Below are positions 1,196 to 27,854 of a DNA stretch of 52,539 nt, piece by piece. Both the position numbers and the translations under genes were made by a program. Below the pieces are notes generated by a model. The model ran no database searches. It worked only from the letters and a program-made list of their open reading frames with translations, and was not told the origin of the DNA. Source of the DNA: Anaeromyxobacter terrae (GTDB taxonomy: Bacteria; Myxococcota; Myxococcia; Myxococcales; Anaeromyxobacteraceae); assembly GCF_022690685.1 (NCBI RefSeq), contig NZ_JALCYY010000039.1, positions 1 to 52,539 of the forward strand, given 5' to 3'. Numbering within the stretch: the stretch's first letter is position 1; each line of letters opens with the position of its first letter.

Positions 1196-2704
1196 GTGGG
1201 AAGGTCGGGGCTCGGCGGCCCGGGGCGACGGGGCCTCGCCGTCCCCACCCGGGCGTTGCCCGTGGGTCACGCAGGGGCAACGTGCTCTCGCGTGGGCACG
1301 GCTCGGTCGCTGCGCGCAGGGGAGGGTGTTCCGGCGCCCCTGGTCGTCCGCGTCGAGGACACGAGCGACCACTCGACGGTCGAGTACACGTTCACGCACT
1401 CGCCGGTCCGCATCGGGCGCAGCGCACGCAACGACCTCCCGCTGCATCACCGCTTCGTGTCGGCCTCGCACGGTCTCGTGGAGTTCTCCCCCCGCGAGCG
1501 CAGCTACACGGATCTCGGCTCGACGAACGGCAGCGTGCTCGACGGCGCGCAGCTCGCCCCGCGCGTGGCGGTCCCGCTCGGGCCCGGAGCGGAGCTCCTC
1601 ATCGGCTCGCTGCGTCTCACGTTCCCCGGCGCGGCGCCGGTCCTCGCGACGGGCGGCGAGGACGCCGCGCTGGAGTCCGCCTCACCGTCGGTCATCCGTC
1701 CCGGCGGGATCACCGCCGTCATGCAGCAGATCGCCCGCGCGCCGACCCTGGACCAGGCGTGGCAGGACGTGCTGTTCCCCGGCTCGGTCATCGGACGGTT
1801 CGAGCTCGTGCGCGAGATCGGGCGAGGCAGCTTCGGGGTCGTGTTCGAGGCCGAGGACCGCCAGCTCCGGAGGCGCGTCGCGTTCAAGGCGGTCCGCCCC
1901 GGGCGCACCTCGCAGGTCCAGCTGCGCCAGGAGCAGCTGCAGAAGGAGGCGGAGGCGATCGCGCAGCTCACGCACCCGAACATCGTGACCCTCTACGACG
2001 CGGGCACCTGCCAGAGCGGCCCGTACCTGGTGCTCGAGCTCCTGCGCGGCGAGACCCTGTACGACGCGATGCGGCGCTCGCGGCTCGGGCTGTCGCAGGC
2101 GATCGAGGTCGCCATCGAGATCGCCTGGGCCCTCGATCACGCCCACGCGGCGGGCGTGGTCCATCGCGATCTCAAGCCCGCGAACGTGTTCGTCTGCTCG
2201 ACGGGCGCGGTCAAGGTCCTCGACTTCGGCATCGCGAGCGTGCTCGGCGGCGGCGACGTCCGGGCGGTCGGGACGCCGGCCTACATGGCGCCCGAGCAGT
2301 GGCGCATGGGCCAGCAGGAGCCGCGCACCGACGTCTATGCGGCCGCCGCGATCCTGTGCGAGCTCGTGACGGGCCGGCTCCCGTACCGGGTCACTCGCGA
2401 CTGGAGCGCGGCGCTCGAGCCGGGGGCTCGCCCCAGCGTGGAGGCGCCCGGCGTCCCCGAGGAGCTGGCGCACCTCCTGCGGCGCGCGCTCTCACCCGAC
2501 GCCGCAGAGCGTCCGCGCGACGGGGCGGAGTGGCTCGCCGCCCTCCTCGCGATCCAGGAGCGGCTCGATCGCCCGAGGCCCGTCGAGACGTCGCCCATCG
2601 ACATGGCGCGGCGGTGGGCGAGCCGGATCGAGTGGCGCGTCGCGCTCGTGGCGGCCGGCATCACCGCGGCCGCGGGCGTGCTCCTCTACGAGCTGCTCCG
2701 GTGA
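1196..2704 (+). CDS. FHA-domain Ser/Thr protein kinase with C-terminal membrane anchor
   Basis: The N-terminal FHA domain (about residues 55-140) shows the phosphothreonine-binding signature: IGRSARNDL, the SxxH of SASH, and TDLGSTNGS. A linker leads to a complete Hanks-type kinase (about 200-450): glycine loop GRGSFGVV, the Lys of RVAFKAV, HRDLKPANV, DFG in VLDFGIAS, and APE in YMAPEQ. A hydrophobic segment close to the C-terminus (about 480-500) suggests tail anchoring with the kinase in the cytoplasm. All catalytic residues are present, so it should be active. The FHA domain probably recruits phosphorylated partners or its own autophosphorylated form. The GTG at 1196 is the longest start; the first ~50 residues look non-domain, so a later GTG (about 1289) is possible. 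TolC and the exporter locus follow, but a regulatory link is only inferred from proximity. Confidence 0.88.
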   Translation: MGRSGLGGPGRRGLAVPTRALPVGHAGATCSRVGTARSLRAGEGVPAPLVVRVEDTSDHSTVEYTFTHSPVRIGRSARNDLPLHHRFVSASHGLVEFSPRERSYTDLGSTNGSVLDGAQLAPRVAVPLGPGAELLIGSLRLTFPGAAPVLATGGEDAALESASPSVIRPGGITAVMQQIARAPTLDQAWQDVLFPGSVIGRFELVREIGRGSFGVVFEAEDRQLRRRVAFKAVRPGRTSQVQLRQEQLQKEAEAIAQLTHPNIVTLYDAGTCQSGPYLVLELLRGETLYDAMRRSRLGLSQAIEVAIEIAWALDHAHAAGVVHRDLKPANVFVCSTGAVKVLDFGIASVLGGGDVRAVGTPAYMAPEQWRMGQQEPRTDVYAAAAILCELVTGRLPYRVTRDWSAALEPGARPSVEAPGVPEELAHLLRRALSPDAAERPRDGAEWLAALLAIQERLDRPRPVETSPIDMARRWASRIEWRVALVAAGITAAAGVLLYELLR

Positions 2705-2865
2705 CCGGGCGCCGCGGATGCCCCCTTCCGTCCGTGCACCTCGGAGCTACCCCATGAGGCAGCGAGCCGGTCCCGTCGCACCGCGGCAGATGGAGATCCG
2801 TTCCGGAGGGTGATGCTCGCCCTGCGCCCGTGCGCGCCCTCCGGCCCTTCGATCTGGGGGAACGC

Positions 2866-4215
2866 ATGGGCACCCTGGCTCTCCTCGTCTCCGCGTGCCT
2901 CGCCGGCGCGGCGCCCCTCACGCTCGACGACGCGCTCGCCGCAGCGACGAAGCGGAACGCCGAGCTCGCCATCTCCCGGCTCGACGAGGAGGCGGCCCGG
3001 GTGGAGGTCCGCCAGAGCTACCAGGGTGTCCTGCCCCGCCTCGATCTGACCGGCAACCTCGGTCATCAGTACCAGGGGGAGCAGCAGCAGGTGAACGTGG
3101 TCCCCAACCCGACCCCACCTCCCGACTTCGTCCGCGTCCCCGTGACGTACCCGTCGAATGACTTCGGCGCGCACCAGTACGGCCTCGCCGCGAGCTGGAC
3201 CGTCTTCGACGGCCTCGCGAGCTGGAACCTCATCTCCTCGTCCCGCACCCGCTCCGAGGCGGCCCAGCGGCTGCTCGACGAGTCGTCGCTCCGGGTGGCC
3301 TTCGAGGTGACGCGCCGGTTCTACGAGGTCGTGAAGCAGCAGCGTGCGCTGGAGGTGCGGCGCGAGACGGCGGCCCTGTCGGAGGAGCTGGTGCAGCGAG
3401 CCGACGCGCTCTTCTCGGCGGGCCGAGGCACCAAGGCCGACACCTACAGCGCCCGGGTGAACCTCGGCAACGATCGGATCGCGGTGCGCAGCCAGGCCGC
3501 CGTCCTCGAGAGCGCCCGGGCCGAGCTCGCGGTGGTCCTGGGGCTCAGCTCCGCCGTGGGGCTGGAGGTGGTCCCCCCGGGCACGGTGACCGGGCCGCTC
3601 CTGCCCGCTCAGCAGGAGCTCCCTCCGCTCCCGACGCTGCTGACGGAAGCTCGGAAGCGGCGGCCGGTCCTCGCGGCGCGGAAGCTGTCGGGCGAGGCGG
3701 GCGACCTGGAGATCGCCCGCGCGCGCGGGGCGTACTGGCCGGTCGTCGGCCTCCAGGCGAGCTACCAGAAGGCATCTCCCGACCTGGGCGGGCAGTTCGG
3801 GCTGTTCGGGAATCCGTCGAAGCAGTACGTGGCGGCGACGCAGGTCACGCTCGCGTGGAACCTCTTCGCCGGGGGCTCGACGCGCGCCGGCGTGGAGCGC
3901 GCAGAGGTGGAGGCCCGCCGGGCCTGGGTCCTCCTCGAGCAGGAGGAGCAGACGGTCGCGGCGGAGGTCACCGTCGCCCGGGAGCAGGCCGCGGCGCTCG
4001 CCGACACGGCGGCGACGGTGCAGGAGAACGTGAAGGCCGCCGAGGCTGCGCTCCGCTTCGCGAGGGAGCGGCTCGAGGCCGGCGTCGGCAGCCAGCTCGA
4101 GGTGCGCGACGCGACGGTGAAGCTCTCGGACGCGAGGCTCGCGTGGGTGAGCACCGTCGTGGATCTCGTGGTCGCCCGCGCCGACCTGAACCGCGCGGTG
4201 GGCGGGGGGATGTAG
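2866..4215 (+). CDS. TolC-family outer membrane efflux/secretion protein
   Basis: The 449-aa protein starts at an ATG preceded by GGGGG about 5 nt upstream. A 36-nt upstream GTG start is possible but would disturb the signal peptide. The N-terminus (GTLALLVSACLAGA) is an export signal, followed by the typical OEP opening LTLDDALAAATKRNAEL. The body has two similar halves rich in Ala/Glu coiled-coil heptads and the beta-strand segments expected for a trimeric channel-tunnel (for example QVTLAWNLFAGGSTRAGVERAE). It probably forms the outer membrane exit duct for the type I exporter encoded immediately beside it; the two transcription units converge with only 12 nt between stop codons. It lacks a lipobox-type Cys. 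General multidrug efflux is the alternative role. Confidence 0.9.
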   Translation: MGTLALLVSACLAGAAPLTLDDALAAATKRNAELAISRLDEEAARVEVRQSYQGVLPRLDLTGNLGHQYQGEQQQVNVVPNPTPPPDFVRVPVTYPSNDFGAHQYGLAASWTVFDGLASWNLISSSRTRSEAAQRLLDESSLRVAFEVTRRFYEVVKQQRALEVRRETAALSEELVQRADALFSAGRGTKADTYSARVNLGNDRIAVRSQAAVLESARAELAVVLGLSSAVGLEVVPPGTVTGPLLPAQQELPPLPTLLTEARKRRPVLAARKLSGEAGDLEIARARGAYWPVVGLQASYQKASPDLGGQFGLFGNPSKQYVAATQVTLAWNLFAGGSTRAGVERAEVEARRAWVLLEQEEQTVAAEVTVAREQAAALADTAATVQENVKAAEAALRFARERLEAGVGSQLEVRDATVKLSDARLAWVSTVVDLVVARADLNRAVGGGM

Positions 4216-4227
4216 GGCGCCGCGCGC

Positions 4228-6231
4228 TCACGCCGCATGGCGCGCCTCGATGATGGTCGCAGGGAGGGCGTCGAGGATCTTGCGGATCGACCGGGCCCGG
4301 ATCGGGTCCAGGTTCGACAGCGCCTCGTCGAGGAGCAGCAGCTTGCGATCCGAGGCGATCGCCGCCGTCAGGGCGATGAGCTGGCGCTGCCCGCCGGAGA
4401 CGTTCTTCCCTCCCGGCGAGAGCACGGTCTGGTAGCCCATGGGCAGGGTCGCGACCAGCGCGGCGAGGCCGGTCTGCTCGGCGGCTTCCATGAGGCGCGC
4501 CACCGGCGCGCCGCCGGACAGGAGCCGCAGGTTCTCGATCACGGAGCCGGAGAACAGGCTCACGAACTGCGGCAGGTAGAGGATGTCGCCCGCGGCCGCC
4601 TGCGGGCTCGTCCCTCCGACGTGGATGGCCCCCTCCTCCGGCGCGTACAGCCCCGCGAGCATGCGGATGAGCGTGCTCTTCCCGAACCCGGAAGCCCCGG
4701 AGATGACCTCCTTGGCGCCTGCCTCGAAGCGCCTCGAGTACCCCTTCGCGATCCACGGAGCGTCGGGCGCGTGGCGGAACCAGACGCCCTCCATGACCAC
4801 GGGCACGCCGCGCGCGCCGGGGGCGGCGCGGCGCGTCGACCGCCGCTCCGGCGCGTGGCCCAGGATCTCCTGGGTCCTCTCGAGCTGGGGCCGCAGGACG
4901 GCGACCGAGAGGTAGACGCGCACGAGGCTGAAGACCGAGCCGAGGAACCCCGAGCTGAGCTGGACGAAGGCGAGGAGCGTCCCCACGAGCAGCTCTCCCT
5001 GGAGCATGAGGCTCCCTCCCCACACGAGCAGCGCCACGTAGAGCCCCTGTCGCATCGTCTCGAGCCCCACGTCGCTGAAGAGGCCCAGCCGCTGGCGGCG
5101 CAGCGCGTGGTCCTGCTCGGCGCTGAACCGCCGGACCCAGCGCTGGAGCGCCTGCGGCTCCGCCCCCGCCGCCTTGATCGTCCCGACGCCGGTGATGAGC
5201 TCGGACAGGAGACCGCGCTCGCGCGCCTGCGCCTCCATCTCCCGACGCTGGTGGCGCGCCTGGGCGGACCCGACGAGGAGGGCGAGCCCGGCCATGACCA
5301 TCGCCACGACCACGACGAGCAGGGTGGCCGCCGGCATCTTGGCCGCCATGGCCGCGACGAACGTGACGGCCATCACGCCGTCGAGCACGGTCGCGAGCGC
5401 GCGCTCCGCGATCACCTCGCGCGCGCTGCTCACGCCGTTGATCGCCTGCAGCCGCTCGCCGAGCGTCATCCGGTCCAGGACCGGGAACGGCAGGCGGAGC
5501 AGGTGCTGGAGGATGCCGCGCTCGGCCGAGACCTCCATCCGCGTGACCAGGAACAGGAGCACGCGATCGCGGAGCAGGCCGGTGCAGGCCTGGAAGGCGG
5601 CCACGAGGACGACGCCCAGGGCGACCACGTGGAGCGTCGAGCGCGCGCGGTCGGGCAGGGCCTGGTTCATGACCGCGCCGGTGATCTCGGGGCCGACGAG
5701 CGAGAGCAGCTGCAGGAGGAGGCTCGCGAGCGCCAGCATCACGAGCGTCCGCCGGTGGTGGAGCAGCAGGGCCAGCAGGCGGGACCAGAGCCCCTTTCCG
5801 TCGGGCAGGGAAGGGGAGACGTCGAGCACGTAGCCCGAGAGGAACGGCCCGAGCTCGGCCGCGGCCATCGAGGTGCCGCCGCTGGCGCCCTCGAGCCGGA
5901 GCGCGTCCCGCTCGCGATCGACGAGCACCACCCACGTGCCGTCGCGGAGCTGGAGCAGCGTGGGGAGGTCCAGGTAGGCCAGCTCGTCGGCGGCGACGAG
6001 CGCCGGCCGGGCCTGGACGCCCGCCCGCTCGAGCGGCTCGGCCAGGGACTCCGCGGTGCCGCGCAGGTCGTGGGCCTCCCGGAAGGCCTGGAGCCCTCCG
6101 TCGTGCCCGTGGAGGCGGAGGAGGCGCCACACGGCCTCGACGGCGTCGAACCCGTCGACGGGGAGCGCGGCGGGGGCCGCCGCGGACCTCACGGCGAGCA
6201 CGGTGTCGGAGACGGCGGCGGCGCTAGGCAT
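4228..6231 (-). CDS. ABC exporter with degenerate C39-like domain (second exporter subunit)
   Basis: The 667-aa protein has, in order, an N-terminal C39-like domain (about 1-145), a six-helix ABC transmembrane domain (about 155-455) and a nucleotide-binding domain. The peptidase Cys is absent, and RDGTWVVLV replaces the catalytic-His segment, so this domain cannot cleave and may bind leaders. Walker A is GASGFGKST (about 512-520), the signature is NVSGGQRQ (about 612), and Walker B is LLLLDE (about 631-636). The protein stops at TIIEARHAA, just after the H-loop position, so the usual 40-50 residue NBD tail is missing. The start overlaps the upstream exporter stop by 8 nt, which implies translational coupling; a longer start at 6276 is possible. 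It resembles the second permease of NHLP/bacteriocin-type export systems and may form a heterodimer with the C39 exporter. Confidence 0.88.
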   Translation of the reverse strand: MPSAAAVSDTVLAVRSAAAPAALPVDGFDAVEAVWRLLRLHGHDGGLQAFREAHDLRGTAESLAEPLERAGVQARPALVAADELAYLDLPTLLQLRDGTWVVLVDRERDALRLEGASGGTSMAAAELGPFLSGYVLDVSPSLPDGKGLWSRLLALLLHHRRTLVMLALASLLLQLLSLVGPEITGAVMNQALPDRARSTLHVVALGVVLVAAFQACTGLLRDRVLLFLVTRMEVSAERGILQHLLRLPFPVLDRMTLGERLQAINGVSSAREVIAERALATVLDGVMAVTFVAAMAAKMPAATLLVVVVAMVMAGLALLVGSAQARHQRREMEAQARERGLLSELITGVGTIKAAGAEPQALQRWVRRFSAEQDHALRRQRLGLFSDVGLETMRQGLYVALLVWGGSLMLQGELLVGTLLAFVQLSSGFLGSVFSLVRVYLSVAVLRPQLERTQEILGHAPERRSTRRAAPGARGVPVVMEGVWFRHAPDAPWIAKGYSRRFEAGAKEVISGASGFGKSTLIRMLAGLYAPEEGAIHVGGTSPQAAAGDILYLPQFVSLFSGSVIENLRLLSGGAPVARLMEAAEQTGLAALVATLPMGYQTVLSPGGKNVSGGQRQLIALTAAIASDRKLLLLDEALSNLDPIRARSIRKILDALPATIIEARHAA

Positions 6232-8371
6232 CGGCGAACTCCCTGGCCTCGACGAGCGAACGGAAGAGGCCGTCACGCCGGGAGAGCTCGTCGTACGTGC
6301 CCTCCTGGACGATGCGGCCGGCCTGCAGCACGAGGATGCGGTCGGCGTCCTTCACCGTGGCGAGGCGGTGGGCGATGAGGATCCGAGTGCAGCCGACGCT
6401 CGCCAGGCTGTCGTGGACGCGGCGCTCGGTCTCCAGGTCGAGGGCGCTGGTCGCCTCGTCGAGCAGGAGGATCGCGGGGTCGTGGACGAGGGCACGCGCG
6501 AGGTTGAGGCGCTGGCGCTGCCCGCCGGACAGGACGCTCCCGTTGTCCCCGAGCCGCGTGCCGAACCCGTGGGGCAGGCCCTCGATGACGTCGTCGACGC
6601 AGGCGAGCCGCGCGGCGGTCCGCAGCCGCTCGAGCGGGAGCTCCTCGTCCGTGAGGCTGAGGTTCGCGCGGATGGTGTCGTCGAAGAGGAAGGTCTCCTG
6701 CAGGACGACGCCCATCTGCGCCCGCACCTTCTGCAGGTCGAGCATGCGCAGGTCGCGGCCGTCGAAGGCGATCGTGCCGCTCGACGGGAGGTGCATCCCG
6801 AGGAGGAGGCGCGCGAGCGTCGACTTTCCCGCGCCGGAAGGGCCCACGATGGCGACCTTCTCGCCGGGGCGGATCCGCACCGAGATGTCGAGGAGCGTCG
6901 GGGGGCCCGCGGGGGAGAACCCGAAGCTGACGTCCTCGAGGTCGACGGCGCCCCGGAGCCGGCCCGGGTCCTCGCTGCCCGAGGGCTCGGCGGGCGTCGT
7001 GAGCACGTCGTCCAGCCGCTCGAGGTGGTTCCCGAGGTACTGGAGCTGGCTCACCGTCTCCAGGAGCGACTCGAGCGGGGACATGAACATGCCCTGGAGC
7101 GCGAGGAACGAGGCGAACGTCCCGAGCGTCATGCGCTGCGCGACCACCTGCTCGCCGCCGACCATGAACACGAGGGCGGTGCCGAGCCCCTGCAGCAGGA
7201 CGGTGGCCTGACGGGCGTGGATCCCGAGCCTCCGGCGCTCGAGCGCCCCGTTGACCCGCCCGGTCATCCGGTGAGACCAGCGCTGGATCATCCGGCTCTC
7301 CGCGCCGCTCGCCTTGGTGGTCTCGAGGCCGCTGATCGCCTCGAGCAGCGCCCCGAACTCGCGGCCGGCGGAGGTGAGCTCGGAGGCCATGGCGAGCTGG
7401 CTCCGCCCGCGGAAGACGAGGAGGAGGACCACCCGCAGCGCCCCGAACCCGATGATCACGAGGCCGAGCCTCCAGTCGAACGCGATCATCAGGCCCGCGT
7501 ACCCGACGAGCAAAAGCCCGTCGAGGAGCGCCGAGATGGACTGGCTCCCGAGCAGGTTCTGGATGGCGGAGTTGCTGTGGACGCGCTGCACGAGGTCGCC
7601 CGCCTCCCGCTGCATGAAGAAGCCGAGCGGCAGGTGCAGCAGGTGGCCGAGGAACCGCGTCATGAGCGTGAAGTCGAGGACGTTGCGCAGGCCCTGCACC
7701 ACGAAGCTCCGCACGAGCGCGAGGAGCGCCTTCGTGAGCACGGCGGCGCCGAGCGCGAAAGCGAGGCCCCAGAGCCAGGCCGGCTGGTGAGGCACCACGA
7801 CCGCGTCCACCAGGATCTGCGTGGCGACCGGGAACAGCAGGCCGACCACCTGGAGCCCCAGCGAGGCGAGCAGGATCTGGCCGAGGCTCGGGAGCGAGCT
7901 GCGGAAGATCTCGCGGTACTTGCCGAGGCTCGGCCGCGTGCGCGCCCGACGCTCGAGCGACGGCGACGGCGACAGCATCAGCGCGACGCCGGTGAAGTGC
8001 CGGCCCAGCTCGTCGAGGCGGATGGAGCGCCGGCCGATGGCCGGGTCCACCAGGACGGCGTGGGTGGACGTGAGGCGCTCCAGGACGAGGAAGTGATCGA
8101 AGTCCCAGTGCAGGATCGCCGGGAGCGCGAGCTGGGCGAGCTGGTCCATCTCCACGCGCACCCCCTGGACGGTGAGGCCGTACTCGCGCGCGGCGCGAAC
8201 GAGGGCCAGCGCGTCCGCGCCGTCCCGCGAGATGCCGCAGGCCTGGCGGACCTCGGCGAGCGGGGCGTGGTGCCCGTAGTGGCCGAGGATCATGCTGAGG
8301 CAGGCCGCGCCGCACTCGGTGACCTCGATCTGCGGGACGAAACGCACGCGTCGCCCGAACGGGAGCTTCAT
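6224..8371 (-). CDS. peptidase-containing ABC transporter (C39 family, double-glycine leader processing)
   Basis: The 715-aa protein has an N-terminal peptidase C39 domain, an ABC transmembrane domain (about 160-450) and an NBD (about 480-710). The C39 domain carries Gln14 (VPQIEV), catalytic Cys20 (ECGAACL), His93 (FDHFLVL) and Asp109 (LVDPA). The NBD carries Walker A GPSGAGKST, signature LSGGQRQR, Walker B ILLLDEATSALD and H-loop IAHR. By family knowledge it removes GG-type leaders in the cytoplasm and exports the core peptide in an ATP-dependent way. The ATG overlaps the HlyD stop (ATGA), and its own stop overlaps the next gene, so all three minus-strand genes form one tightly coupled operon. 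The only GG-leader precursor I found nearby is the divergent gene at 10043. Confidence 0.95.
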   Translation of the reverse strand: MKLPFGRRVRFVPQIEVTECGAACLSMILGHYGHHAPLAEVRQACGISRDGADALALVRAAREYGLTVQGVRVEMDQLAQLALPAILHWDFDHFLVLERLTSTHAVLVDPAIGRRSIRLDELGRHFTGVALMLSPSPSLERRARTRPSLGKYREIFRSSLPSLGQILLASLGLQVVGLLFPVATQILVDAVVVPHQPAWLWGLAFALGAAVLTKALLALVRSFVVQGLRNVLDFTLMTRFLGHLLHLPLGFFMQREAGDLVQRVHSNSAIQNLLGSQSISALLDGLLLVGYAGLMIAFDWRLGLVIIGFGALRVVLLLVFRGRSQLAMASELTSAGREFGALLEAISGLETTKASGAESRMIQRWSHRMTGRVNGALERRRLGIHARQATVLLQGLGTALVFMVGGEQVVAQRMTLGTFASFLALQGMFMSPLESLLETVSQLQYLGNHLERLDDVLTTPAEPSGSEDPGRLRGAVDLEDVSFGFSPAGPPTLLDISVRIRPGEKVAIVGPSGAGKSTLARLLLGMHLPSSGTIAFDGRDLRMLDLQKVRAQMGVVLQETFLFDDTIRANLSLTDEELPLERLRTAARLACVDDVIEGLPHGFGTRLGDNGSVLSGGQRQRLNLARALVHDPAILLLDEATSALDLETERRVHDSLASVGCTRILIAHRLATVKDADRILVLQAGRIVQEGTYDELSRRDGLFRSLVEAREFADA

Positions 8372-9819
8372 GGCAACCACCTCTGGAGGGGCTTGAGGAC
8401 GAGCGTCACGAGCCGCTGCCGCCGCAGCGTGAACCGGGCGTTCAGGAGCGCGCCCGTGCGGAGCTTCACGTGCGCCGCCTCCGCCGCCGCGGCGTCCGTG
8501 ATCTCGAGCTCGACGCGGTAGCTCGGGGGGACGTTCCTCTGCTCGTCGCCGAGCGCGTCCCGGATCTCCGCCGGCGAGGCGAGATCGTCGCTGATGCGCG
8601 TCACCCGCGCCCGCACGGTCCCGTACTGCGCGTGCGGGAGCTGGTCGAGCTCGAGCTGGACCTCGTCGCCGGCCTTCGCGAAGGCGCGATCGCGCTCGGC
8701 CAGGAAGGAGACGCCCTGGAGCGGGGAGTCGACGGGGACGAGCTTCGCGACGACCTGCCCGGGCTGGATCACCTCGCCCGGCTTCACGAGGAGCTCGACG
8801 GTCCCGTCGTCGGGAGCCTGGATCACGCTCTGCTGCAGCACGAGCGCGAGCGCGTCGCGCTTGTTCTGGGCGGTCGCCACGAGCTGCTGGCGGTTCCAGA
8901 GCTCCTCCTGGCGCCGGCTCTCCAGCGACGCGAGCTCCTGCCGCGTCTGGTCGAGGGTCTGCTCGGCGGCGGAGAGCTGGCGCTCCGCCTGCGCGAGGCC
9001 GTCGCGCGACTCGGCCACGGCCATCTCGCTCAGGAGCCCCTTCCCGAGCAGCCCGAGGTCCGCCTGGACGCGGCGCGCGTGAAGGGCCGCCGAGCCCTTC
9101 AGGCTCGCGATCTGCTCGCCCATCCGCTGGGCCCGCGCGCGGAGGCTCTCGATCTGCTCCGTGTAGTGGTGGTCCTGCTGCGAGGAGACGGTCGAGTACT
9201 GGGTGCGAACGGCATCGAGCTCGCGGTCGGCCTCGAGGAGCTGCGCCTGGACGGCAGGCGACTCGATCCGGAGGAGCGGGGCGCCGGAGCGCAGGCGATC
9301 GCCGGAGCGCGCCTCCACGCGCGTCACGGTCCCGCCGAGCTGAGCCGTCAGGGCGCGCACGCCCGCCGCGGGGCGGAGGATCCCCCGCCCCCGGCCGGTG
9401 ACCTCGACCTGGCCGACGAACGACGCCGCGAGCGCCGCGACGAGCCCCGCGACCACGATCCACAGCAGCGCCCACGTCCACGGAGGAGACACGCGGACGA
9501 GGCCTCTCCCCTCCTCGTACGCGAGGCGGTGCTTGAGGGCCTCATCGCGAAACAGGCGCGGCGCGGGCTTCGGCTGCTCGACCTCGGGGGCCGGCTCGCG
9601 ATCTCGCCGGGCGACGGTCTGCACGGTCGCGCGCGCTGGCCGCGGGCGGACCTCGACCTCGACGGTCTTCCGCTTCCGGCTTCGCTCCTCCGCCCGCGTC
9701 GTCGCCAGCTCCGCCTGCGACGCCTGGCGGATCGACGCGATGAACGCCGCCCGCCTGCGCGCCCGCGCAGCCTCCGAAACGGTTGCCTGGGCGTTCCTGC
9801 CGGTCCTGACCCCGCTCAC
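8368..9819 (-). CDS. HlyD-family periplasmic adaptor of the type I exporter
   Basis: The 483-aa membrane fusion protein has a long Arg/Ala/Pro-rich cytoplasmic N-terminus, one transmembrane helix (WALLWIVVAGLVAALAASF), a biotinyl-lipoyl-like half (VEVTGRGRGILRP, GGTVTRVEARSGDRL), a long coiled-coil hairpin (about residues 190-350), the second lipoyl half (IQAPDDGTVELLVKPGEV) and a C-terminal beta-barrel region. This is the architecture of adaptors linking a peptidase ABC exporter to TolC. The GTG start at 9819 is preferred because GGGAGG lies about 6 nt upstream. An in-frame start at 10008 would add a Ser/Arg-rich stretch lacking domain character. It is the first gene of the three-gene export operon, divergent from the peptide gene across a 223-bp gap. 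Confidence 0.92.
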   Translation of the reverse strand: MSGVRTGRNAQATVSEAARARRRAAFIASIRQASQAELATTRAEERSRKRKTVEVEVRPRPARATVQTVARRDREPAPEVEQPKPAPRLFRDEALKHRLAYEEGRGLVRVSPPWTWALLWIVVAGLVAALAASFVGQVEVTGRGRGILRPAAGVRALTAQLGGTVTRVEARSGDRLRSGAPLLRIESPAVQAQLLEADRELDAVRTQYSTVSSQQDHHYTEQIESLRARAQRMGEQIASLKGSAALHARRVQADLGLLGKGLLSEMAVAESRDGLAQAERQLSAAEQTLDQTRQELASLESRRQEELWNRQQLVATAQNKRDALALVLQQSVIQAPDDGTVELLVKPGEVIQPGQVVAKLVPVDSPLQGVSFLAERDRAFAKAGDEVQLELDQLPHAQYGTVRARVTRISDDLASPAEIRDALGDEQRNVPPSYRVELEITDAAAAEAAHVKLRTGALLNARFTLRRQRLVTLVLKPLQRWLP

Positions 9820-10042
9820 GGCGACCTCCCGCGAAGGTGGACGGGCGAGGCGCGTCGATCTGACCGGCTGGCGTCGGGGAAGGTGGCTCTCGGGACGGCG
9901 AGACCCGCTCGGGGACGTCAGGTCTCCGCTCGCGGCGAGTCTCTCGGTCGAACGGGCTGAGGGACGGTGAGGACAGGCCGAGCCGAGCCTCCGCCCATCA
10001 CGCAGCAATCACTCGAACGCAGGACCAGGAGAAGACGAAGAC
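9820..10042. promoter_or_regulatory. divergent intergenic region between exporter operon and GG-peptide gene
   Basis: This 223-bp gap separates the GTG of the HlyD gene from the ATG of the peptide precursor, so promoters for both units must lie here or overlap the coding starts. An AGGAG-type ribosome site precedes the peptide ATG at a somewhat long distance (about 11 nt). I could not identify convincing -35/-10 or sigma-54 boxes. Confidence 0.45.
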
Positions 10043-10258
10043 ATGGATCGCAAGCTGATGGTGCTCGGGGACGAGGAGCTGTTCGCGGTGTCGGGCGGTC
10101 ACAAGGGCAAGGGGTACTACCGGAAGCACGTCGAGCAGTCGCTCGACCAGAACCAGAACCAGAGCGTGGACGTCGGGGGCGACGTGATCCTGAAGGGCAA
10201 CGCCAGCCTCACGATCACCTTCGGCGACCAGAGCCAGACCGCGTCCCAGACGGCGTAG
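10043..10258 (+). CDS. double-glycine leader peptide precursor, Q/N-rich core (candidate secreted peptide)
   Basis: The 71-aa precursor has a leader of 19 residues ending LGDEELFAVSGG. Relative to the predicted cut after Gly19 it has Leu at -12, Glu at -8, Leu at -7, Val at -4 and Gly at -2/-1, the classic consensus for C39 peptidases. The 52-residue core has three parts: a basic start (HKGKGYYRKH), a Q/N-rich middle (DQNQNQS at about 35-41) and a beta-prone Thr/Ser/Gln end (VILKGNASLTITF, then QSQTASQTA). It has no Cys, and no lanthipeptide, radical-SAM or other modification enzyme is nearby, so it is likely exported unmodified. Its role is unknown: an antimicrobial, a signal, or an aggregating/adhesive peptide are all possible. 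It is monocistronic and followed by a strong hairpin. Confidence 0.88.
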   Translation: MDRKLMVLGDEELFAVSGGHKGKGYYRKHVEQSLDQNQNQSVDVGGDVILKGNASLTITFGDQSQTASQTA

Positions 10259-10592
10259 TCGCAAGCGGCAGGACGCGAGCCTGGCGCGTCTCGTCTCCTC
10301 CAGGCACGGAATCGCCGACCTCGCGCTCGGCCGCACGCGGCACCGGTGCGGTCGAGCCGAGGTCGGCGTTCCGCGATACGGTCGAGCCGCGGATGGAGTC
10401 GCGCGCTGCGCCGGAACGAGCTCGTGTCGCGGCGGCGCCGGAACGCGATGTCCGACGTGCGCCGTCGAGGGACGTCCTGGTCACGGGGCGAGGCCGAGCG
10501 TGGTCCCGGTCGAGCGACCTCGCGCTCCCGGCGCCAGATGTCCGACGAGGCGTCCGCACCCCCGCTCCCTTCGCCCGGGAGCGGCGTCTCTC
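10259..10592. other. intergenic region, GG-peptide to sigma factor
   Basis: About 330 bp without a convincing gene. It contains the hairpin listed at 10313-10368 and otherwise Arg/Ser-coding-type GC-rich sequence whose frames show no domain. The promoter of the sigma-factor gene should lie in its right half. Confidence 0.5.
10313..10368 (+). terminator. long imperfect hairpin downstream of GG-peptide gene
   Basis: Bases 10313-10323 pair perfectly with 10358-10368 (11 bp). After a one-base bulge at 10324, bases 10325-10336 pair with 10346-10357 with a single C/T mismatch, giving about 23 paired positions and a 9-nt loop. It begins 54 nt after the peptide stop and is followed by only two T residues. 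It is probably a terminator or 3'-stabilising structure that keeps the peptide transcript separate from the sigma-factor gene. Confidence 0.7.
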
Positions 10593-11243
10593 GTGGAGCG
10601 CCACCTTCACGCCGTGGCCGCGCGCCGGCCGGCCCGGTACTTCCACGTCGTGGAACACGAGCGCCCCACGCCAGCGTCCGTTCAGCAGTCCGTCCAGCAG
10701 CACATCGACGCCGGGGACACGTCGGCGGCGGCGACCGAGGCGCTGCGCGCGCTCGGCCCCGAGATCCTCCGGTTCCTCCGCTCCGTGCTCCGCGACGAGG
10801 AGGACGCCGCCGACGCCTTCTCGCACTTCGCGGAGCGCCTGTGGCGCGGGCTCTCGAGCTTCCGGGGTCAGTCCTCCCTCCGCACGTGGGCCTTTCGCAT
10901 CGCCTGGAACTCCGCCCTGACCCTCCGGAACGACGCGTGGCACCGCAAGGGCCGGCGCTTCGCCACCGGCGAGGCGTCCGCGCTCGCCGAGGAGATCCGC
11001 ACGAAGACCGTCGTGCGCGTCGCGCGCCAGAAGGATGCCTTCGACAAGCTGCGCCAGGCGCTCTCGGCCGAGGACCAGTCCCTGCTCGCGCTGCGGCTCG
11101 ATCGCGGCTTCTCGTGGGAGGAGACCGCCGAGATCCTGTCCGCCGGAGGCGAGCCCGTGCAGGCCCTCACGCTCATGAAGCGCTTCGAGCGGATCAAGAA
11201 GCGCCTCGCGGAGATGGTCAGGAAGCAGGCGGAGGAGGAATAG
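10593..11243 (+). CDS. sigma-70 family (ECF-like) RNA polymerase sigma factor
   Basis: About 216 aa from the GTG at 10593, which has GGGAG 11 nt upstream. Region 2 is visible around EILRFLRSVLRDEEDAADAF and the LRTWAFRIAWNSAL helix (promoter -10 recognition and core binding). Region 4 is around LSAEDQSLLALRLDRGFSWEETAEIL, followed by a basic helix ending KKRLAEMVRKQAEEE. There is no region 1.1 or 3, as in ECF-type factors. A shorter GTG start (10650) would also retain both regions. No anti-sigma gene is adjacent. The convergent neighbour is a heme-containing membrane sensor 30 nt away, which may or may not be functionally related. Whether it controls the exporter/peptide genes cannot be told from sequence alone. 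Confidence 0.85.
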   Translation: MERHLHAVAARRPARYFHVVEHERPTPASVQQSVQQHIDAGDTSAAATEALRALGPEILRFLRSVLRDEEDAADAFSHFAERLWRGLSSFRGQSSLRTWAFRIAWNSALTLRNDAWHRKGRRFATGEASALAEEIRTKTVVRVARQKDAFDKLRQALSAEDQSLLALRLDRGFSWEETAEILSAGGEPVQALTLMKRFERIKKRLAEMVRKQAEEE

Positions 11244-11273: not shown

Positions 11274-12248
11274 TCACTCCTCGTCCCGCTCGGGCGGCGG
11301 CTCGGGCTCGTCCTCGAGCATCTTCATCGCGGCGACGACGCTGCGGTGCATGCGGTTGAACGCTGCGGCGAGGATCGAGATCTCGTCCTTGCCGCGCACC
11401 GGCAGCTCCGGGACGTCCAGCTGACCCCGGCTGATCTCGTCGGCGCGGGTCGCGAAGCGGCTCACCGGCCGGATGACCGTCACGTACAGCAGCACGTCGA
11501 GGACGAGCAGGGTGAGGAAGCCCACGGCGACGAGCGAGACGATGAGTCGCTGGAAGGCGTGGTTCGCCATCTGGACGGGGACGGAGACCGGCACCGAGAT
11601 GATCTGCGCCGCCACCACGTCCCCCTCCTTCCAGCCGAAGCCGTTGTTCGGCCCGTAGAGCTGGATCATCTCCTTCGGCGCGGCGGTGGGGATCGAGTGG
11701 CACTCCATGCAGTCCGACTGGGCGCGCAAGGGCTTCGCCAGGTAGAGCGCGCGACCGAGCGGGGTCTCCCGCTCGCCGTCGAAGAGCGCCAGCTCGGGAC
11801 GGTTCCGGAAGTTCTTGATGAGATCCTCCTCCCAGTCGAGCGCGCGGTTGCGCGGGTTCGTCGGGTTGAGGGTCGCCTCCTTGTACAGGTAGTCCGGGTA
11901 CTTCTTCCGGAGCTCCATGAACATCTCCGTCGCCGAGTACGCGGGGACGGTCTGCGGGCGGAACACCCGCTTCGCGGCGAAGCCCCGCTTGGCGCAGAGC
12001 TCGCGGAAGACGTCGTCGGTGTGATCGGCCGTCGCGCTCTGCGTGAAGCTGTCGTTGATCGCGGGCTTCACCTGCTTGATGGTGTAGCTCCGCATCGCGA
12101 GCGCGGTGTCCATCATCAGCTGGGCGTTGTGGAGGACCTGATCGCGCGCGTTTCGCTGCAGCAGGCCGTAGAACAGGTAGGCGGCCGCGCCGAGGCCGAT
12201 GCCGAACACCACGACGAAGATCAGGCTGAACTTCGCGAGCAGTCGCAT
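11274..12248 (-). CDS. membrane sensor: DUF3365/Tll0287-like domain with c-type heme motif and HAMP, no output domain
   Basis: The 324-aa protein has a transmembrane helix at about 8-28 and a periplasmic DUF3365/Tll0287-like sensor domain (about 35-225). That domain includes SDCMECHSIP, a single CxxCH heme c site at residues 180-184. A second transmembrane helix lies at about 235-258, followed by a HAMP domain (about 258-310, RPVSRFATRADEISRGQ) and an acidic tail. A very strong GGGGAGGGGGA ribosome site directly precedes the ATG. Related proteins often continue into a histidine kinase or methyl-accepting module; here the reading frame ends after HAMP, so it must signal through a partner. The heme suggests redox or gas sensing. 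It converges on the sigma-factor gene and diverges from a CpoB-like lipoprotein gene. Confidence 0.85.
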   Translation of the reverse strand: MRLLAKFSLIFVVVFGIGLGAAAYLFYGLLQRNARDQVLHNAQLMMDTALAMRSYTIKQVKPAINDSFTQSATADHTDDVFRELCAKRGFAAKRVFRPQTVPAYSATEMFMELRKKYPDYLYKEATLNPTNPRNRALDWEEDLIKNFRNRPELALFDGERETPLGRALYLAKPLRAQSDCMECHSIPTAAPKEMIQLYGPNNGFGWKEGDVVAAQIISVPVSVPVQMANHAFQRLIVSLVAVGFLTLLVLDVLLYVTVIRPVSRFATRADEISRGQLDVPELPVRGKDEISILAAAFNRMHRSVVAAMKMLEDEPEPPPERDEE

Positions 12249-25004: not shown

Positions 25005-27854
25005 TCAGGCCGGGCGGGTGCGTGGCAGGCGCCCGGGCCGCGGCTGCGCGGCGACGAGGCGCGTGAGCACCTTCTTCAGCTCCATCACCCAGAGCACCGA
25101 GCTCGCGACGGCGACGCAGAGGAGCCAGTCCCCCGCGGTCAGGGGGACGGTCCGGAACGCGCCCTGGAGGAACGGGGCGTGGACCACGGCGACCTGCAGG
25201 GCCGCCGAGATCAGCACCGCGAGCCAGAGCCAGCGGTTGGCGAACGGCCTGTGGAAGGCGCTGCGGGCGGGGAAGCGGGAGTTGAAGGCGTTGAAGAGCT
25301 GGAACAGGACGAGCGTGGTGAACGCCAGGGTCTGGGCGTGCCGGAGGCCTCGCCCCGGGGCGGAGGGGCCGGCGCCGCCGATGAGCCCGCCGGGCAGCGC
25401 CCCGTCCATCACCGCGAGCGTACCGACGGCCATGACCGCGCCGACCAGGACGAGGTCGAACCAGGTCCGTCCGTCGAGCACCCGGCTCCGCGGGTCGCGC
25501 GGCGGCTCGAGCATGAGGTCGCGGTCCGCCGGCTCGACGCCGAGCGCCAGCGCGGGGCCCGAGTCGGTCAAGAGGTTGATCCAGAGGATCTGGGTCGCGA
25601 GCAGCGGCACGACCACCGCCGAGCCCTCCTCGGGCTGGAGCCCGATCACCCCCGCGAGCAGCACGCCGAGGAACATGACGAGCACCTCGCCGATGTTCGA
25701 CGAGAGCAGGTAGCGCAGGAAGCGCTGGATGTTGGCGAAGATCGAGCGCCCCTCCTCGACGGCGGCGACGATCGAGGCGAAGTTGTCGTCGGTGAGGATC
25801 ATGTCGGCGGCCCCCTTCGCGACGTCGGTGCCGGCGATGCCCATCGCCACGCCGATGTCGGCCGCCTTCAGCGCAGGCGCGTCGTTCACTCCGTCCCCGG
25901 TCATCGCGATGACCTCGCCGTTCGCACGCAGCGCCCGGACGATCCGCAGCTTGTGCTCCGGCGCCACGCGGGCGTAGACCGAGACGTCGCGGACGGCCGC
26001 GCGCAGCCCCTCGTCGTCCAGCCGCTGGAGCTGGGCGCCCGTCAGCACCGCGCCGCCCCTGGCCGCGATCCCCAGCTCGGCCGAGATCGCCGCCGCCGTG
26101 ATCGGGTGGTCGCCCGTGATCATCACCGGGCGGACGCCGGCCCGCCGCGCGTCGGCGACGGAGGCGCGGGCCTCCGGGCGCGGCGGGTCGATCATGGCGA
26201 CCACGCCGAGGAGCACGAGCTCCTGCTCGACCTCGTCCGTCAGCTCCCCGGGGATGGCATCGAGGGTGCGGTAGGCGACCCCGATCGTCCGCAGCGCCGC
26301 CGCGGCCAGCCGGTCGACGGCGGCCGAGATCTCCGCGCGGCGCTCCTCGCCGAGCGCCCGGGTCTCCTCGCCGATCCGTTCCCGGGTGCAGCGCGCCAGC
26401 AGGACGTCGGGCGCGCCCTTCGTGAACACCAGCACGCGCTCCTGCTCGGCGTCGGCGTGGGCGGTGCTCATCAGCTTGCGCTCGGACGAGAACGGCACCT
26501 CGCCGAGGCGCGGGTAGCGCGCCTGGAGCGCCTCCAGGGCGAGCCCCACCTTGCGCGCGGCCACCACCAGCGCGCCCTCGGTCGGATCGCCCTGGATCGT
26601 GAAACGGCCGTCCTGCTCGACGAGCACGGCGTTGCTCGCGAGCTGGCCCGCTTCCAGCGTCTTCTCGACCTCCTCGAGCAGCACGGGATCCTCGACCGAA
26701 CGGCCGTCCCGGCGCACCTCGCCGGTCGGCTCGTACCCGGTGCCGGTCAGGTCGACGGTGCCGCTCGCGGTGACGACGGTGCGGACGGTCATCTCGTTCT
26801 TGGTGAGGGTCCCGGTCTTGTCGGAGCAGATCGTCGTCGTCGAGCCCAGGGTCTCGACCGCCGCGAGCTTGCGCACGATCACGTGGCGCTCCGCCATGCG
26901 CTGCGTCCCGAGCGACAGCACGATCGTCGTGATCGCCGTGAGCCCCTCCGGCACGGCGGCCACCGCGAGGGAGACCGCCAGCAGGAGCACGTCGACGACG
27001 TCGGTGAGCGAGCGCAGCTCCTCCACGACCAGGATCGTCGCGCTGATGACGATCGCGATCGCGATGACCGCCGCGCCGAGCTGCTTGCCGACGCGGTCGA
27101 GCTCCCTCTGCAGCGGAGTCTCGACCTCCTCGGTCGTCTGGAGCGAGCGGGCGATCCTGCCGAGCTCCGTCGAGGATCCGGTGGCGGTGACGACCGCCCG
27201 GCCGCGGCCGGATGCGATGGCCGTGCCGCTGAAGACCATGTTCTCCTGGTCGCCGAGGCCGAGCTCCGCGGCGAGCGGGGCGCTGTCCTTGGAGACGGGC
27301 ATGCTCTCGCCGGTGAGCGCCGACTCGGCGGCCCTGAGCGCGATCGACTGCAGCACCCTGGCGTCGGCGGGGACCGTGTCGCCCTCCTCGAGGAGCAGGA
27401 CGTCGCCCGGGACGAGCTCGGCGGTCGGAACGAGCTGCTGCCTCCCGTCGCGCAGGACGCGGGCGCTCGGCGCGGACATCGCCCGGAGCGCCGCGACCGC
27501 CTGCTCGGCCCGGCTCTCCTGGACGAAGCCCAGCACGCCGTTGAGGAGCACGATCGCGAGGATGGTGAGCGTGTCGTAGGGGAGCGGCGTCTCGCGCTCG
27601 ATCCACCAGGCGACGAACGAGACCACCGTCGCGACGAGCAGCAGGATCGTCAGCACGTCGCGGAACTGGGCGAGGAAGCGCCGCCAGGCCGGGACCGGCG
27701 CTGGCGAGGGCAGCTCGTTCCTGCCGTGGCGCCGGAGGCGCTCCTCGACCACGTCCCCAGGGAGCCCGCGCTGCGCGTCGCTCGCGAGCCCGGCGACGAC
27801 CTCCGCCGCCGCGAGCCGGTGAGGAGGCGATTCGGCCGGGCTAACCGCGGCCAA
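25005..27854 (-). CDS. P-type cation-transporting ATPase, Ca2+-ATPase-like (type II)
   Basis: The 949-aa protein has an N-terminal cation ATPase domain, an actuator domain with TGES (181-184), transmembrane helix 4 with VAAVPEGL (about 299-305), phosphorylation site Asp345 in ICSDKTGT, a nucleotide-binding domain with [10 protein letters not shown], the hinge [13 protein letters not shown], and C-terminal helices with SSNIGEV and [15 protein letters not shown]. The PEGL and TM5/TM6 residues resemble SERCA/PMR1-type Ca2+ pumps, although Na+/K+-type or mixed specificity cannot be ruled out. It moves cations across the inner membrane at the expense of ATP. The TTG start lies inside the last codons of the acetate kinase-phosphoketolase gene (14-nt overlap), and no better start exists before the domain begins, so translation is probably coupled. 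It converges on the oxidoreductase gene with 30 bp between. Confidence 0.92.

Follow-up and report, generated by a model that had tools for sequence, protein, structure and literature searches.

A putative sigma-controlled regulon of double-glycine-leader peptides with a shared C39 exporter in Anaeromyxobacter

Gram-negative peptides with a double-glycine (GG) leader are usually read as microcins, and the EbfG proteins are a case of biofilm building. In Synechococcus elongatus PCC 7942, the GG proteins EbfG1-4 are needed for biofilm formation and rely on PteB, a C39 protein, in their export; EbfG1-3 are amyloid-prone, and the EbfG proteins have no antibacterial role (PMC4997328, PMC9981879). 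The Anaeromyxobacter locus described here is similar in that several small GG-leader proteins, without known homologues elsewhere, are encoded next to a C39 exporter. Whereas the EbfG genes form one transcript, the Anaeromyxobacter genes each have a promoter element and a hairpin of their own, and their system further differs in having a linked ECF sigma factor and kinase and members scattered in the genome. The likeness claims no homology of the cores, and the Anaeromyxobacter peptides are known from sequence alone.

Two other described systems share parts of this arrangement. Class II microcins (e.g., microcin V, exported by CvaAB-TolC) have the same GG leader, C39-ABC protein, HlyD adaptor and TolC, but the Anaeromyxobacter system has no immunity gene, two ABC proteins, a sigma-linked multi-peptide regulon and a Q/N-rich core. 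Secretion by the Fap amyloid system of Pseudomonas requires the C39-family protease FapD (PMC5557850). Fap likewise combines Q/N-rich amyloid substrates with a C39-family protease; however, FapD stands alone as a periplasmic protease, and the substrates leave by Sec and FapF with no ABC exporter. GG-peptide type I secretion is known; new is a regulon that is sigma-linked, has interchangeable substrates and, among the searched genomes, is confined to part of the Anaeromyxobacter family. No published description of a sigma-linked GG-peptide regulon was found in the literature searched. We put the probability that the locus belongs to a sigma-controlled regulon of C39-processed, exported peptides at about 80%.

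The peptide gene and its homologues

The window, by which we mean the whole 52,539-nucleotide stretch of DNA of the soil bacterium Anaeromyxobacter terrae that was analysed, contains the following features:

1196..2704, + strand: FHA-Ser/Thr kinase, hydrophobic at its C-terminal end (PF00069, PF00498; start uncertain)
2830..4215, + strand: TolC-family outer-membrane factor (TolC/OEP; PF02321, E 4e-54; TIGR01844 below cut-off)
4228..6276, - strand: second ABC transporter (PF00664, PF00005; N-terminal domain without the catalytic Cys)
6224..8371, - strand: C39 peptidase-ABC exporter (PF03412, E 1e-36; PF00664, PF00005)
8368..9819, - strand: HlyD-type adaptor (PF13437, TIGR01843; inferred start codon, from an alignment to A. 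oryzae and relative G007)
9917..9943, + strand: putative promoter element of ECF type, GTCAG-17 bp-GTCTC, 99 bp upstream of the peptide start codon
10043..10258, + strand: 71-aa precursor of the GG-leader peptide (leader 10043-10099, core 10100-10255; from translation and homologues)
10314..10367, + strand: long conserved hairpin 3' of the peptide gene, with arms that occur nowhere else in the window
10593..11243, + strand: ECF-type sigma factor (PF04542, E 2.5e-11; start uncertain)

The open reading frame at 10043-10258 (+) encodes a 19-aa leader, MDRKLMVLGDEELFAVSGG, followed by a 52-aa core, HKGKGYYRKHVEQSLDQNQNQSVDVGGDVILKGNASLTITFGDQSQTASQTA. The original prediction of a 71-aa precursor with a consensus GG leader agrees exactly with this translation, and every leader position it named matches (L-12, E-8, L-7, V-4, G-2, G-1). 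These positions are kept in homologues, with G or A at -1, as expected of a double-glycine-leader C39 substrate; lack of leader conservation had been named beforehand as counter-evidence, and the A. oryzae copies retain the leader. The window peptide is thus predicted to be a C39 substrate that is cleaved after GG and exported. Its core has no Cys and is 19% Q+N; the claim of a cysteine-free peptide stands for this core and fails as a family trait, with one Cys in the basic head of three of the four A. oryzae copies.

Close homologues were found in a single genome besides the window's own, that of A. oryzae Red232 (G006). It carries four tandem copies with 52-63% identity to the window peptide, spaced ~490 bp apart and next to exporter, TolC, kinase and sigma orthologues (67-85% identity). 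No relatives were recovered from the plasmids or viral contigs searched, from genome contigs searched other than A. oryzae, or from outside the family among 195 genomes of the phylum. Weak matches in genomes G091 and G093 were rejected, the latter lying in a transposase-like frame and the former looking like the same element. A Pfam match to HpuA (E 0.0014, under the gathering score) was taken as chance, sister copies matching less or not at all, and a PDB sequence search gave no match.

Conservation between the window gene and the A. oryzae copies covers the leader and the C-terminal FGDQSQ.A.Q.A. The dN/dS of the leader is ~0.35 against three copies and ~0.5 against the fourth, and the core evolves faster (~0.7-1.1), all of these being rough numbers from short sequences. 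Judged by these rates, the leader is under purifying selection. Differences in the basic linker between the tandem copies are mainly amino-acid changes, with a replacement rate above that of the cores (again rough numbers), and such fast-evolving cores and linker fit antagonism or recognition as well as structure. The four homologues, the leader dN/dS and the conserved promoter element and hairpin at each gene argue that the window frame is not a chance one. Elsewhere in the window, positions 25059-27767 match A. oryzae DNA that directly adjoins the kinase gene there, so the region has been rearranged between the two species.

The exporter and its distribution

The HlyD, C39-ABC and second ABC reading frames overlap slightly and are divergent from the peptide gene, and the TolC gene faces them. 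All four were confirmed by domain matches, bearing out the earlier claim of a complete export route near the peptide. The C39 domain retains its Cys (ECGAAC), His (WDFDHF) and Asp (DPAIG), as read from the translation, and is the only one found in the window's genome, which places an exporter with intact catalytic residues in the same genome as the peptide, as a C39 substrate requires.

The gene trio of HlyD, C39-ABC and second ABC could also point to an NHLP-type RiPP cluster, in which the peptide would be modified ahead of export, and the top-scoring model for the C39-ABC is indeed TIGR03796. Against this, the three NHLM models score under their curated cut-offs (681 vs 853, 272 vs 709 and 73 vs 156 bits), no nitrile-hydratase-like or Nif11 leader was matched, and the window core offers no Cys. 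No modification enzyme was seen in the cluster, and the earlier statement that neither an immunity nor a modification gene is visible holds up. We regard modification before export as very improbable.

The idea that the exporter is dedicated to the window peptide had to be given up: it is the only C39 exporter of the genome, and orthologous exporters carry other GG/GA substrates. Such orthologues (71-78% identity for the second ABC protein, ABC2) are present in two more relatives, one of the same genus (G007) and one of the same family (G016); elsewhere in the 195-genome phylum set, no ABC2 match exceeded ~32% identity. Both relatives are without the window peptide and have three other GG/GA peptides each in the same slot. 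An exporter operon found elsewhere with a different GG substrate is what the original prediction had named as evidence against itself. In G016, the sigma gene, the kinase gene and one peptide gene stand at the end of one contig, and two peptide genes, HlyD, both ABC genes and TolC start another, suggesting one continuous cluster.

Each of these four family genomes has one strong C39-ABC, and a full C39-ABC is found in none of the remaining 20, two of which give a weak, short C39 match. The exporter, the orthologous sigma factor, the promoter element and leader peptides co-occur in 4 of 24 family genomes; in the other 20 the exporter and promoter are absent, and a search for peptides of the family came up empty. 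A leader-profile scan of two of the exporter-less genomes returned chance-level matches only, nearly all in long frames.

The ~30%-identical ABC2 matches in other Myxococcota were set aside as distant transporters, some with GG peptides of other, often Cys-containing types nearby. GG-leader peptides were noted beside such distant ABC exporters at seven loci (L030, L032, L033, L035, L037, L041, L042), and many of the cores contain Cys (e.g., ...NSCGIVACV).

Sigma factor, promoter and regulon members

The kinase, sigma factor, promoter element and hairpin had been missed in the original prediction. Sigma orthologues at 79-85% identity were found only in the four exporter genomes, and a kinase orthologue adjoins the cluster in G006, G007 and G016, which places the kinase in the cluster in all four. 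A Tll0287-like/HAMP sensor gene (11274-12248, -) adjoins the sigma gene of the window and has counterparts close to the exporter clusters in A. oryzae, G007 and G016.

The closest described parallels are the ECF43 sigma/kinase pairs EcfP-PknT and EcfK-PknS (PMC8999054, PMC13147305), in which an ECF sigma factor and a Ser/Thr kinase are likewise encoded in one cluster, adjoining a secretion function that they possibly control (T6SS for EcfK). In ECF43, the acidic motif of region 2.2 is replaced by a phosphorylatable Thr motif (PMC8999054). The window sigma factor, in contrast, keeps the acidic DEED (RDEEDAADAF) that ECF43 members lack. Its assignment to ECF43 was rejected despite the nearby kinase, and activation by phosphorylation of that motif therefore does not follow.

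Alignment of upstream regions revealed GTCAG-17 bp-GTCTC as an invariant element ~80-100 bp upstream of the start codons of all exporter-linked peptide genes in the four genomes. Its form resembles that of ECF promoters; it would act as the promoter, with the ECF-type sigma factor as its likely activator. The exact pattern occurs 12 times in the 24 genomes, each time upstream of a leader peptide and only in the four exporter genomes; having been derived from those same sites, it is informative in the absence of other exact matches. Allowing one mismatch added two leader peptides, at G007:1751508 and, within the genome of the window itself, at G000:C99:113364. Trained on 14 sites, a sequence model returned 17 matches at a threshold of E<=0.005, all within the four exporter genomes (best elsewhere 0.06). 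Three were outside the training set: G000:C24:91255 lies upstream of a new GG peptide, G016:C3:4220 upstream of a small Sec-type secreted protein near the sigma gene, and the G000:C58 match has no recognisable leader ORF after it. Three leader peptides that had escaped the exporter-linked family profile came to light through the promoter (G000:C99, G000:C24, G007:1751508).

The hairpin at 10314-10367 is probably a terminator or 3' stabiliser. A long, sequence-conserved hairpin, with some two-sided changes, follows nine of the ten exporter-linked genes folded; an Rfam search with it gave no match. Each of the four A. oryzae tandem copies has its own promoter and hairpin, and the exporter-linked genes thus resemble self-contained units of promoter, ORF and hairpin. 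Sequence comparison shows these units and the leaders, the co-occurrence of units and exporter, and the intact C39 residues.

A second promoter class, GTCAG-17 bp-GTCCA, combines the same -35-like half and spacing with a different -10-like half, and perhaps serves a paralogous sigma factor. It precedes five more GG/GA-leader peptides (L168-L172: G006:C1:5294738, 5412895, 5403266 and 4786907; G007:C1:3685360).

Regulon members away from the exporter are not Q/N-rich. The peptide found in the window's genome via the promoter model (G000:C24:91348, L135) has a GG leader and a helical, bacteriocin-like core, SALCSAVSTTIKAVGDALSTAARKG, with no obvious immunity gene in its neighbourhood. G000:C99:113474 (L136) and G007:C1:3685360 (L172) have alike Pro-rich cores behind GG/GA leaders (HPVYPMPPGQFP... 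and HPVFPPGQFP..., respectively), and their promoters belong to the two different classes.

The exported cores and their possible roles

The exporter-linked cores follow a common plan, in which a flexible, often basic head precedes QxN/QxQ, a beta-prone stretch, a Gly-containing turn, a second beta-prone stretch and a further QxN/QxQ. From the first QxN/QxQ to the second, this plan fits 8 of 8 cores against 0.43 expected in shuffles, a descriptive figure given that the pattern was read from these cores and several are homologous. The curlin half-repeat motif N-x-psi-x-psi-x-Q (PMC10192328) occurs in four of the eight, all siblings and with one half-repeat each. A match to the curlin-like holdfast anchor protein HfaA (PMC6707917) was obtained for one sibling, at E 0.0028 and short of the cut-off, and for none of 10 shuffles. 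Curli (CsgA) and HfaA share with these cores the plan of Q/N-flanked beta-strands; they differ in using Sec with CsgG or HfaB, as opposed to C39 type I export, and in having repeats, as opposed to one unit per peptide. Searches of Pfam and NCBIfam with the window peptide gave neither a curlin nor an HfaA match, and its core does not contain the motif. AF2 modelling returned only a low-confidence C-terminal hairpin (pLDDT 63 and 58), and a beta-alternation test was not significant. The G007 and G016 substrates share the leader type, promoter and Q/N-rich, beta-prone core, which lends indirect support to the earlier guess of a secreted, adhesive or amyloid-forming peptide.

In the mechanism that we propose, the FHA-Ser/Thr kinase encoded nearby probably governs the ECF sigma factor, which would switch on the set of promoter-ORF-hairpin units, with one GG/GA-leader peptide per unit. 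The leader would be removed in the cytoplasm by the cell's only C39-ABC, and this protein, together with HlyD, TolC and a partner ABC that lacks the catalytic Cys, would move the core directly outside the cell. There, the exporter-linked cores may act as beta-rich, self-associating surface or matrix peptides, like EbfG1-4 in Synechococcus biofilms. We infer the pairing of sigma factor and promoter, the kinase control, the cleavage and export and, above all, the self-assembly, including any amyloid formation by the cores.

That the exporter-linked members are surface or matrix peptides is suggested by their Q/N-rich, beta-prone cores, the lack of an adjacent immunity gene, the tandem duplication and the EbfG1-4 precedent, and by this analogy we favour it tentatively, at slightly under even odds. 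The narrower proposal of a kinase/ECF-sigma regulon delivering one-unit curlin-like amyloid peptides through a C39 type I exporter is doubtful.

Because other regulon members look bacteriocin-like and the cores diversify quickly, class II microcins or bacteriocins are kept as a serious rival: the regulon would then be an arsenal of unmodified antibacterials passing through a shared exporter, with immunity unlinked or absent. A GG leader with a C39 exporter is the classical microcin route, the cores vary between species, the linker diversifies between tandem copies, and two members, G000:C24 and G007:1751508, have cores of amphipathic, bacteriocin-like appearance. However, no immunity gene adjoins any exporter-linked peptide; the stretch from hairpin to sigma gene shows no conservation with A. 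oryzae and holds no conserved ORF, the tandem units are too tight for an immunity gene, and the window peptide matches no bacteriocin family. Q/N-rich hydrophilic cores are also unlike the known membrane-active class II peptides. We consider an antibacterial arsenal possible, if on the unlikely side.

The cores could alternatively be cell-cell signals acting back on the kinase or another receptor, given that the cluster encodes a kinase and a sigma factor and that other GG peptides are pheromones. Cores of ~50 residues are long for signals, though, one sigma factor is common to several different peptides, and the kinase has no obvious extracellular domain, its FHA and kinase domains preceding the C-terminal hydrophobic segment. 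Signalling is accordingly improbable, ranking below both surface or matrix peptides and microcins.

If the amyloid proposal is true, Gram-negative bacteria would have a further secretion route for functional amyloids besides CsgG and FapF, with substrate cassettes that are interchangeable and vary from species to species. With the promoter as a guide, substrates can be found that escape searches by sequence similarity. With its recognisable promoter, one exporter and few cassettes, this compact regulon in the culturable Anaeromyxobacter would make both roles, matrix building and antagonism, directly testable.
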